Shown here piece by piece: positions 5,372 to 63,680 of a DNA stretch of 64,000 nt. A program made the translations under genes and the position numbers. The stretch comes from Solirubrobacterales bacterium (GTDB lineage Bacteria; Actinomycetota; Thermoleophilia; Solirubrobacterales; Solirubrobacteraceae): the NCBI GenBank assembly GCA_019240115.1, contig JAFAYV010000082.1:1-64000 (forward strand), read 5' to 3'. Every line of letters starts with the position of its first letter. Within the stretch, counting starts at the first letter, position 1. The notes below the pieces were generated by a model. It did no database searches, was not told the origin of the DNA, and saw nothing but the letters and a program-made list of their open reading frames with translations.

Positions 5372-5468
5372 CGACGGGCCCGCGGATCTTGAACCTCGAG
5401 GGTGAGAACGGAGTACGCCGGATGGGGGATCGCGGTGTGGCGGCTCGCGTGGGATGACGTAGCTGGCG

Positions 5469-5474
5469 TAGAGT
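5469..5474 (+). promoter_or_regulatory. Candidate -10 element for the YciI-like gene
   Basis: TAGAGT ends 7 bases before the ATG at 5482, which would give a leaderless or nearly leaderless transcript. No Shine-Dalgarno and no convincing -35 are present. Confidence 0.35.
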
Positions 5475-34259: not shown

Positions 34260-34401
34260 GCGTCCGCAACCGACCGGAAGGGCGTGCGCAACCGACCGGA
34301 AGGGCGTGCGCAACCGACCGGAAGGGCGTCCGCAACCGACCGGAAGGGCGTCCGCAACCGACCGGAAGGGCGTCCGCAACCGACCGGAAGGTCGTGCAAC
34401 C
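34260..34401. repeat. 22-bp tandem (iteron-like) array, six copies plus a partial seventh
   Basis: The unit GCGTCCGCAACCGACCGGAA plus GG is repeated at 34260, 34282, 34304, 34326, 34348 and 34370. The copies are identical except for C/G at position 5, and a degraded half-copy follows at 34392. The exact 22-bp period (about two helical turns) puts every copy on the same DNA face. The array lies in the 322-bp spacer between the divergent doxX gene and the molybdenum hydroxylase operon. The period is not a multiple of three and no spacers are present, so it is neither a coding repeat nor CRISPR. Between the array and the operon lie the dyads GCCTAGGC (34406-34413) and CGCCTAGGCG (34449-34458). 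Confidence 0.9.
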
Positions 34402-44523: not shown

Positions 44524-45396
44524 TTGCGGGCCGCCTGCATCGACATCGGCTCCAACACGACGCGGCTGCTCGTGGCCGACCTGCTCGGCGGCCGGCTCGT
44601 GGAGATCCGTTCCGAGCGCGCCTTCACCCTGATCGGGCAGGGTCTGGCGGCGACGGGGACCGTCACGGCGGCCAAGATCGACGAGGTCGTCGCGGTCGTC
44701 GCCGCGCAGCTGCGCTCCGCGATGGAGCTTGGCGCCGACGACATCTGCGCGGTGGCCACGGCGGCGATCCGCGCCGCGGCCAACGGCGCCGAGCTGATCG
44801 CCGCGATACACGCGGCCACCGGGCTGCGGGTGCGCGTGCTCTCCGCAGAGCAGGAGGCGCGGCTGGCCTTCAGCGGCGCGGCGCGGATGCTCGGGGACCG
44901 ACCGCCGGGCCTGCTCGGCGTGCTCGACGTCGGCGGGGGCTCGTCGGAGATCGTGCTCGGGACCGCCCCCGCGGAGGTCGCGTGGTGGAGGTCGCTGGCG
45001 ATCGGCTCGAGCACGCTGACCGACGGCTGGCTGCACGCCGATCCGCCGACCGCCGCTGAGCTCGCCGCCGCGCGCCGGGAGATCTACGCGCGGATGGAGG
45101 GGTTGCGCCCGCCGCTCCCGGCGCTCGCGGTCGCCGTCGGTGGCAGCGCCACGTCGCTGTGCCAGCTCGCCGGGCCGATCCTCGACCCCGCAGCGTTGCT
45201 GCGGTCGGTGCGGGTGCTCGCCTCCGAGCCCGCGGCGGTCGTCGCGCAGCGCTCGGGGATCGACCCCCGCCGCGCGCGCCTGCTGCCGGCCGGACTGCTC
45301 ATCCTCGAGGCGCTGACCGAGCTGCTGCGCACCCGGATCGTCATCGGGCGGGGCGGCGTCCGCGAGGGGGTGCTGCTAGAAGCATTGACCGCGTGA
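44524..45396 (+). CDS. Ppx/GppA-family phosphatase (exopolyphosphatase domain)
   Basis: 290 residues from a TTG at 44524. ACIDIGSNTTRLLVADL is the actin-like phosphate-1 loop. CAVATAAIRAAANG, LSAEQEARLAFSGAARML and GVLDVGGGSSEIVLG follow, giving a complete Ppx/GppA core. The long form of the family (about 500 residues) has a C-terminal HD-like domain; this short form lacks it, but an HD-domain gene follows immediately. Substrates are polyphosphate or pppGpp. The stop codon starts a chain of overlapping GTGA junctions leading to the HD gene. Confidence 0.87.
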   Translation: MRAACIDIGSNTTRLLVADLLGGRLVEIRSERAFTLIGQGLAATGTVTAAKIDEVVAVVAAQLRSAMELGADDICAVATAAIRAAANGAELIAAIHAATGLRVRVLSAEQEARLAFSGAARMLGDRPPGLLGVLDVGGGSSEIVLGTAPAEVAWWRSLAIGSSTLTDGWLHADPPTAAELAAARREIYARMEGLRPPLPALAVAVGGSATSLCQLAGPILDPAALLRSVRVLASEPAAVVAQRSGIDPRRARLLPAGLLILEALTELLRTRIVIGRGGVREGVLLEALTA

Positions 45397-45437
45397 CCCA
45401 CGCGCCAAGCCAATGCGTGACCCACGAGCCGACGTGA
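45393..45437 (+). other. Minicistron 1 in the Ppx-HD junction
   Basis: A 14-codon frame (MTHAPSQCVTHEPT) begins at the GTG overlapping the ppx stop (GTGA, 45393-45396), contains a second in-frame GTGACC at 45417, and ends at a TGA overlapping the next GTG (45434). It looks like a duplicated copy of the start region of the HD gene (MTREPP). Translation is not demonstrated. Confidence 0.5.
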
Positions 45438-45463
45438 CCGACGAGCCGAGCCCCACGGCGTGA
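45434..45463 (+). other. Minicistron 2 in the Ppx-HD junction
   Basis: A nine-codon frame, MTDEPSPTA, opened by a GTG that overlaps the stop of minicistron 1 and closed by a TGA (45461-45463) that overlaps the GTG of the HD gene at 45460. It shares the GTGACC-GAG-CCG pattern of both neighbours. Confidence 0.5.
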
Positions 45464-46278
45464 CCCGCGAGCCCCCGATCCCGCCCCGCGAGGCGCTCGC
45501 CGACGTCCACGTCCGCGCCCCGACGCGCGGCAACCGGCGCCTGGAGCGTCTGCTCGAGGCGGTCAACCGCGACACCCAGCTGAAGGCGTGGTGGCACGTG
45601 GCGGCGATCAACGCGAGCCGGCGCCTTCATATGTCCGACCACTCCTGGGTCCACGTCCAGATCGTCTTGAACATCGGGCTGCGACTCGCGCGGCTGCTGT
45701 TCCGCCGCGGCGTGACGCCGAGCATCGTGGCGGACTTCGCGCTGGCCGAGCGCGATGCCGAGGTCGTCGTCGCCGCCGGGTGCCTCCTGCACTGCGTCGG
45801 GATGTCGATCCACCGCGCCGATCACGAGCGCTACAGCCTGTTCTTGTCCGCCGACAAGCTCGGCGGGCTGCTCGCCGACGTCTACGAGGAGCCCGAGCGC
45901 TCGATCGTCGCCTCCGAGACGCTGCACGCGATCATCGGCCATCGCTCCGACGGGCGTCCGTTCACGGTGGAGGCGGGCATCGTCCGCGTCGCCGACGCGC
46001 TCGACATGGCGCGGGGTCGCTCGCGGGTCGGGTTCGAGGCCGGCCAGACGAGCATCCACTCGGTGTCGGCGTACGCGATCCAGGACGTCAAGATCTCGCC
46101 CGGCGAGGAGCGGGCCGTGCGCGTCGAGATCGCGATGTCCAACAGCGCCGGCATCTTCCAGGTCGACGAGCTGCTCGCCGAGAAGCTCCGCGGCTCGGGG
46201 CTGGAGGAGCACATCGAGGTGATCGCACGGATCGATGCCGAGCACGAGGAGAGCCTCGTGCACGTCTTCCGCCTGTGA
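45460..46278 (+). CDS. HD-domain metal-dependent phosphohydrolase-like protein
   Basis: 272 residues from a GTG at 45460. The helical core SDHSWVHVQIVLNIGLRLAR, LHCVGMSIHRADHERYSLFL and ETLHAIIGHRSDGRPFTVEA with IVRVADALDMARGRSR follows the HD-phosphohydrolase pattern. The diagnostic doublet, however, reads HC (LLHCVGMS, CAC TGC) where relatives have HD, so a metal ligand appears replaced by cysteine. The second metal ligands (HRADHE, VADALD) are intact. It is coupled to the Ppx gene through two minicistrons and may stand in for the HD domain missing from that short Ppx. Activity is uncertain. Confidence 0.78.
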   Translation: MTREPPIPPREALADVHVRAPTRGNRRLERLLEAVNRDTQLKAWWHVAAINASRRLHMSDHSWVHVQIVLNIGLRLARLLFRRGVTPSIVADFALAERDAEVVVAAGCLLHCVGMSIHRADHERYSLFLSADKLGGLLADVYEEPERSIVASETLHAIIGHRSDGRPFTVEAGIVRVADALDMARGRSRVGFEAGQTSIHSVSAYAIQDVKISPGEERAVRVEIAMSNSAGIFQVDELLAEKLRGSGLEEHIEVIARIDAEHEESLVHVFRL

Positions 46279-62902: not shown

Positions 62903-63657
62903 GTCGCGTGCCGCTGATCGCGGGCAACTGGAAGATGCACAAGACGATCGCCGAGGCCGAGGCGCTCATCCAGGCGCTGCTGCCGCGCGTCTCCGCGGCC
63001 GACGGCGTCGACGTGGCCATCTGCCCGCCGTTCACCACGCTGCAGGCGATGGTCGACTCCGCGCGCGGCTCGCGGGTCGCGGTGTGGGCCCAGAACATGC
63101 ACCAGGCACAGGAGGGCGCCTTCACCGGCGAGGTCTCCGCGCCGATGCTCTCAGAGCTCGACGTCGCCGGGGTGCTGCTCGGGCACTCCGAGCGTCGCGA
63201 GCTGTTCGGCGAGACCGATCGGGCGCTCGCCCAGAAGGTTCCCGCCGCCTTCGCCGCCGGACTGCTGCCGGTCCTGTGCGTCGGCGAGACCGAGGATGAG
63301 CGCGAGCGCGGCGACACCGAGCGCAAGCTCCGCCACCAGGTCCAGGAGGACCTCGCGCGGATCGACCCCGGCCAGCTCGGCGACGTCGTGATCGCCTACG
63401 AGCCGATCTGGGCGATCGGGACCGGGCAGACCGCGACCGTCGAGCAGGCCCAGGAGGCGATCGCCTTCGTGCGCGCGCTCGTCGCCGACCGCTCGCCGCA
63501 GGCCGCCGAGCGGACTCGGATCCTCTACGGCGGAAGCGTCAAGCCCGACAGCGCGGCCGAGCTGCTCGGCATGCCCGACATCGACGGCGCGCTCGTCGGC
63601 GGCGCGAGCCTCGATGCCGAGGCGATGGCGGCGATCGTCGCGGCCGCCATCCCGTGA
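62899..63657 (+). CDS. tpiA: Triosephosphate isomerase
   Basis: 252 residues from the ATG at 62899 (ATGA overlap). Active-site Lys is in [12 protein letters not shown], electrophile His in [13 protein letters not shown] and base Glu in [16 protein letters not shown]. The phosphate loop [17 protein letters not shown] is intact. It interconverts dihydroxyacetone phosphate and glyceraldehyde 3-phosphate. The stop (TGA 63655-63657) overlaps a GTG that opens an eight-codon minicistron rather than gpmI itself. Confidence 0.98.
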
Positions 63658-63680
63658 CCGAGCCGCCGACGACCCCGTGA
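63654..63680 (+). other. Minicistron between tpiA and gpmI created by a 23-bp duplication
   Basis: The segment GTGACCGAGCCGCCGA occurs at 63654 and again, identically, at 63677 (period 23). The first copy is an eight-codon frame, MTEPPTTP, whose GTG overlaps the tpiA stop and whose TGA (63678-63680) overlaps the second GTG, the gpmI start. Because 23 leaves remainder 2 on division by 3, the copied GTGA supplies the stop. Translation is inferred. Confidence 0.6.

Follow-up and report, generated by a model that had tools for sequence, protein, structure and literature searches.

Stop–start ladders of duplicated start sites between ppx and an HD-domain gene and at other coupled gene junctions of a soil actinobacterium

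Introduction

How do four related start sites come to stand between two adjacent genes, and could ribosomes pass along them? The question is raised by the junction between ppx, which encodes a Ppx/GppA phosphatase, and an HD-domain gene in a stretch of 64,000 nucleotides from a Solirubrobacterales bacterium (GenBank assembly GCA_019240115.1, contig JAFAYV010000082.1, positions 1 to 64,000 of the forward strand), hereafter the window. The genome, here called G000, is a fragmented draft from an uncultured soil actinobacterium. At this junction, two minicistrons are joined to each other and to both genes by 4-nt overlaps of stop and start codons, an arrangement that we call a ladder. Comparison with relatives and with other junctions of the same genome suggests that such ladders arise through duplication of a coupled junction in place, and that they probably work by termination and reinitiation.

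Structure of the ppx–HD junction

The stop codon of ppx sits within the first of four related GTGACC copies, which begin at 45393, 45417, 45434, and 45460 (spacings of 24, 17, and 26 nt); the 67 bases from the first to the last GTG contain all four (Table 1). Stop/start overlaps of the 4-nt NTGA type are found at 45393, 45434, and 45460. Since the copy at 45417 shares the frame of that at 45393, it provides an alternative start inside minicistron 1. On both strands of the window GTGACC occurs 65 times, and clusters of four within 71 nt, for which the expected number is about 4e-4, were observed only at ppx–HD. Pairwise identity among the four 17-nt units is 12–15 of 17 bases; when GTGA sites of the window were drawn at random in sets of four, none of 20,000 sets reached this level. 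The 17-nt unit was also recovered independently by Tandem Repeats Finder (45416–45449, 94% match).

Profile searches matched the ppx product to PF02541 (E 2.4e-37) and to TIGR03706 (E 1.2e-47, yet under the TIGR03706 cut-off), and the HD gene product to PF01966 (E 1.8e-5); the latter is 77–81% identical to its congeneric counterparts. A single long coding frame over the ladder was ruled out, as stops occur in every relevant frame and 45460 is the sole in-frame ATG, GTG, or TTG before the conserved PPREALA segment of the HD gene.

Table 1. Coordinates of the ppx–HD junction and of other ladders in G000 (window positions unless a contig is given)
Feature	Position	Strand	Description
ppx (Ppx/GppA phosphatase), upstream gene	44524..45396	+	TTG start 44524, TGA 45394–45396; from the list of open reading frames (ORFs)
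ppx end coding LLEA (CTG CTA GAA GCA)	45373..45384	+	Shine-Dalgarno-like motif lost in window
Minicistron 1	45393..45437	+	14 codons + TGA, MTHAPSQCVTHEPT; GTGA overlapping ppx stop; ends in third copy
In-frame second start copy within minicistron 1	45417..45437	+	6 codons, MTHEPT; first half of 17-nt repeat pair
Minicistron 2	45434..45463	+	9 codons + TGA, MTDEPSPTA; GTGA overlapping minicistron 1 stop; ends in fourth copy
HD-domain gene	45460..46278	+	272 aa; GTG overlapping minicistron 2 stop
tpiA–gpmI, second ladder in window	63654..63680	+	tpiA stop GTGA 63654, 8-codon minicistron, gpmI start GTGA 63677
folP ladder (L092)	G000:C82:30534-30690	-	about eight 17-nt units upstream of folP
recC–recB-like ladder (L306)	5395-5473 (G000:C39)		three near-identical 38-nt units giving two 13-codon minicistrons

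The same junction in congeners

The HD gene directly follows ppx in congeners as well. Nine of ten congeneric ppx–HD junctions (L003–L010 and L030) are plain single overlaps of 4 or 8 nt without extra units. The overlap is 4 nt long in L003 (GTGA) and L010 (ATGA) and 8 nt long, such as ATGCCTAG or GTGGCTGA, in L004, L005, L007, L008, L009, and L030; L006 reads GTGAGTAG and also has no extra units. The HD start of L003, GTGAGCGACGAGCCG, resembles the window copy at 45434. Because nine of the ten junctions are plain overlaps, the ppx–HD ladder is a derived state that arose when the junction was duplicated in tandem. The tenth (L002/L036, genome G027) carries an in-frame expansion of 24-nt units, GTGAGCCCGCCCGACCCGCTCCCC, broken by an assembly gap. 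The junction has therefore expanded in a second species as well, by an in-frame extension that the frame rule described below permits. No same-species relative with a different ppx–HD copy number was found, the closest HD proteins being 81% identical.

The initial annotation of this locus had located the copies and the frames of the minicistrons, both of which are correct by sequence and ORF check. It had also traced the copies to a single, repeatedly duplicated start region, which the similarity of the units and the plain junctions in relatives support. It had further allowed that homologues might reveal the region as part of one longer coding sequence; this fails for most relatives, with the in-frame arrangement of G027, which contains the assembly gap, as the exception.

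The neighbourhood of the HD gene differs between lineages. It lies downstream of ppx in the genus and of an apparent ppk1 end in other lineages, where it is often tightly coupled (L041, L043, L059, L011, L019). The HD gene may act in polyphosphate metabolism.

Ladders at other junctions

About 15 further duplicated junctions were found in G000, including recC–recB, gatA–gatB, tpiA–gpmI, folP, and hypF; gene names at ladders outside ppx–HD come from reading translations, not from profile searches. Tandem duplication close to the junction was seen in 34 of 482 co-directed gene pairs. Searching G000 with the 17-nt unit revealed the folP ladder, with minicistrons of six codons each (MTGEPT, MTREPT, and MTEEPT, each followed by a stop), several units of which carry a Shine-Dalgarno-like GGGGAG or GAGGAG 5 nt ahead of the next start. 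A unit-independent pattern (RTGA, 13 bases, RTGA, 13 bases, RTGA), for which the reversed control gave no match, identified a VirB4-like to VirD4/TraG-like junction, a glycogen-phosphorylase-like to amidase junction (glgP–amidase), and a degenerate 17-nt ladder near priA–def. Ladders of 20 nt lie upstream of hypF and at a suhB-like/peptidase junction. A reading of all periods, which covered about half of the G000 genome, added gatA–gatB (23 + 23 nt), recC–recB (38 + 38), tpiA–gpmI (23), rph–rdgB, and others. The tpiA–gpmI ladder has a single minicistron from a 23-nt duplication that begins GTGACCGAGCCGCCGA.

Among congeners, the 17-nt pattern occurs at recG–rsmD, deoA–deoB, and lutC, upstream of a uracil-DNA glycosylase gene, and elsewhere, and arrays of this type are also present in other genera of the class, clustered in certain genomes. 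A variable-gap GTGA pattern applied over the genus was uninformative, its matches being dominated by GTG-A.. codons. At the suhB–peptidase junction, most readable congeners have a plain 4-nt overlap (L254–L257, L260, L262, L264), while the 20-nt ladder has two extra units in G000 and three, one of them degenerate, in G016. Ladders have arisen independently at many coupled junctions of G000 and of the genus.

The repeat units are unlike between junctions, and most are similar to the beginning of the gene that follows them. In most full ladders that gene itself begins with the last copy, for example ATGATCGAGCGGGTGCGGGC before ATGATCGACTGGGTGCTGGC at suhB–peptidase. The 17-nt units of ppx–HD and folP are alike, which is one partial exception to this diversity. 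A single repeat family spread over the genome was ruled out by the unit differences among sites, and a special role of 17 nt was dropped after ladders of 20, 23, 26, 35, 38, and 44 nt turned up. Since the copies match the local downstream start and orthologous ladder-free junctions are plain overlaps, the comparison supports duplication in place rather than a mobile element.

Unit length and reading frame

For a 4-nt overlap, the stop lands in the next copy solely when the unit length is 2 modulo 3. With units of 1 modulo 3, the chain is interrupted when the number of added units is odd, and a unit of 0 modulo 3 merely extends the N terminus of the downstream gene (gene B). For an 8-nt overlap, continuity of the chain needs a unit length of 1 modulo 3. 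The observed ladder steps are 17, 20, 23, 26, 35, 38, and 44 nt, all 2 modulo 3; the window adds one in-frame step of 24. Unit lengths of 1 modulo 3 hardly occur at ladder junctions, and such arrays are present elsewhere. The importance that the initial annotation attached to spacing modulo 3 is supported at ppx–HD and holds for many other junctions of G000 and its genus. Its count of spacings was off: it wrote of three of four spacings, and there are three spacings, of which two are 2 modulo 3.

Two tests, both modest and partly post hoc, address this bias. The first used 1.97 Mb of G000 and RTGA pairs that connect two coding-like ORFs, with dissimilar pairs as the control. At duplicated RTGA junctions with a total offset not divisible by 3, the path was unbroken in nine of ten cases; among the non-duplicated ones it was unbroken in 29 of 61 (Fisher p 0.016). 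In the second test, arrays of 16, 17, 19, and 20 nt were searched equally in 28 genomes. Arrays at 4-nt junctions numbered 14 at 17/20 nt versus 0 at 16/19 nt, and non-junction arrays 17 versus 10 (p 0.0085). The sole 16-nt junction array, L221 (G016:C85:13334-13385), has 8-nt overlaps (ATGNNTGA / ATGTCTGA), the type for which 1 modulo 3 is predicted, and obeys the frame rule; no other junction case of 1 modulo 3 was seen.

Two arrays of 22-nt units were also noted in G000. One lies in the window at 34260–34395 and consists of about six units, GCGTCCGCAACCGACCGGAAGG, with a 97% match and without RTGA. The other is an intergenic GTGAGCGACCACTGGTCCCTGC array (L289 8323-8500, G000:C90), whose unit length is 1 modulo 3; a frame opened at one copy would end two copies further on, which makes it a predicted stride-two ladder.

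Proposed origin and function

In the ancestral state, the start codon of the HD gene would have overlapped the ppx stop. This overlap, together with the first HD codons, would then have been tandemly duplicated in this lineage, most simply via replication slippage. When a GTGA or ATGA overlap is copied by a unit of 2 modulo 3, the chain of minicistrons still leads from the upstream gene (gene A) into gene B without a gap between stops and starts. The same event would have happened independently at many coupled junctions, the survivors nearly always abiding by the rule. A ribosome that has finished ppx would re-start at 45393, end at 45437, re-start at 45434, end at 45463, and re-start once more at the HD gene. 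We consider it probable that slippage duplicates coupled junctions, that selection keeps the variants in which stops and starts remain continuous, and that termination–reinitiation is the likely mode of working. Given the anatomy and the unit-length bias, this reading implies that ribosomes would traverse the ladders, that the minicistrons would be translated, and that the HD gene would depend on them. More tentatively, and with lower odds, coupled junctions in this bacterial group could be hot spots of repeated slippage, where a ribosome would pass as many as about nine short minicistrons before it reaches an essential gene, with ladder length serving as a naturally variable, heritable output setting and a readout of reinitiation efficiency.

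Shine-Dalgarno-like motifs bear on entry into the ladder. Most relatives have CTGGAGGC, which includes a Shine-Dalgarno-like GGAGG, near the end of ppx, and a motif of this kind is found inside the ppx end in 10 of 10 relatives (-5.9 to -9.9 kcal/mol). The motif is missing in the window because LLEA is encoded there with CTA, GAA, and GCA, which are rare in G000 (1%, 7%, and 3% within their synonymous sets). All four ladder starts in the window are weak, at +0.2 (45393), +1.1, -2.4, and -2.2 kcal/mol (45460), relative to a median of -6.0 at 216 direct 4-nt junctions in G000, only 5% of which are as weak as +0.2. Because the motif is lost at the ladder entry, the HD gene would rely more on ribosomes coming from ppx, although this comes from one post hoc observation. 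In relatives, the motif may be merely a consequence of preferred codons.

Several points weigh against slippage followed by selection for continuity. At glgP–amidase one copy has lost its start and the stop–start path is broken. The p value of the array test rises to 0.064 if L221 is counted as a plain exception. Junction classes were counted with ORF length and codon-position GC standing in for curated genes, the arrays were classified manually after the data had been seen, and some ladder sites came from searches that began with 17 and 20 nt. In a fragmented draft genome, copy numbers could be mis-assembled. Finally, an equal bias would result if selection acted against stray starts that run out of frame into gene B.

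Alternative explanations

This last point can be developed into an explanation of its own. Starts offset by 1 modulo 3 would run into gene B in the wrong frame, and those offset by 2 modulo 3 would stop at its start, so that selection against interference would suffice if gene B were self-initiated from a ribosome binding site in each copy. At folP, deoA–deoB, and a kinase pair, each unit has a strong motif (-5.5 to -10 kcal/mol), and gene B could initiate by itself there. Self-sufficient initiation is not obvious at the four window starts or at the hypF, lutC, and recG–rsmD ladders, where motifs are also weak, and we regard this explanation as unlikely. Passing ribosomes along the chain and protecting the downstream gene both need the copied starts to be in use.

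Slightly less likely is a neutral origin, in which common tandem duplications strike a GTGA by chance. Arrays with and without ladder geometry do exist at many periods, including 22 nt. A neutral origin leaves unexplained why the path is retained at junctions when arrays of 16, 19, and 22 nt do occur away from junctions.

The initial annotation had proposed that the ladder lowers or tunes the output of the HD gene; selection for lowering or buffering this output, with copy number as the dial, seems to us improbable. The loss of the entry motif through CTA-GAA-GCA, which leaves the first start among the weakest 5% of direct junctions, would suit such a device, as would the differences in copy number among sites and among orthologous junctions. 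That loss is one case recognized after the fact, other ladders have strong motifs, and ladders precede unrelated housekeeping genes that have no common need for lower output. Insertion of a mobile MIRU-like element at DTGA overlaps is very improbable: short ORFs joined through -4 nt overlaps give the same geometry and the folP and ppx–HD units are similar, but the units of other junctions are mutually unrelated and mostly like their own downstream start.

Relation to known systems and significance

The closest described counterparts are the mycobacterial interspersed repetitive units (MIRU), short repetitive ORF-bearing units that lie between co-directed genes and are coupled to the neighbour by a -4 nt stop/start overlap (Supply et al. 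1997, per review PMC12548453). They are thought to be tolerated since coupling is preserved, and are described as copies of a mobile repeat family (PMC12548453). The ladders likewise place short repeated ORF units between co-directed genes and keep an overlapping stop/start chain with their neighbours. In contrast to MIRU, their units are 17–50 nt long, junction-specific, and mostly matched to their own downstream start rather than members of one family, and orthologous ladder-free junctions are plain overlaps rather than start codons that received a mobile insertion.

Huber et al. (2019, PMC6728339) showed experimentally that ordinary gene pairs of E. coli and Haloferax are coupled by termination–reinitiation at ATGA/GTGA overlaps. 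Each ladder step has the same 4-nt overlap; unlike ordinary pairs, two to about nine overlaps are chained through minicistrons at one junction. Bicistronic expression designs use a short upstream ORF to hand ribosomes to the next gene (PMC12548453), and the minicistrons of a ladder would similarly pass ribosomes onward, although ladders are natural, repeated, located between two genes, and built from a duplicated downstream start. No account of in-place ladders in this group was found in the literature searched, which covered few subscription journals.

Natural ladders bear on how far and how often a bacterial ribosome can re-start after stopping. They vary in step number, length, and Shine-Dalgarno strength, some have plain orthologues, and together they offer a ready series in which re-starting can be measured. 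For genome annotation, gene finders may assign starts at ladder junctions to the wrong copy. If the modulo-3 bias holds in a larger count, it would provide genome-scale evidence that 4-nt overlaps persist as translated coupled units.
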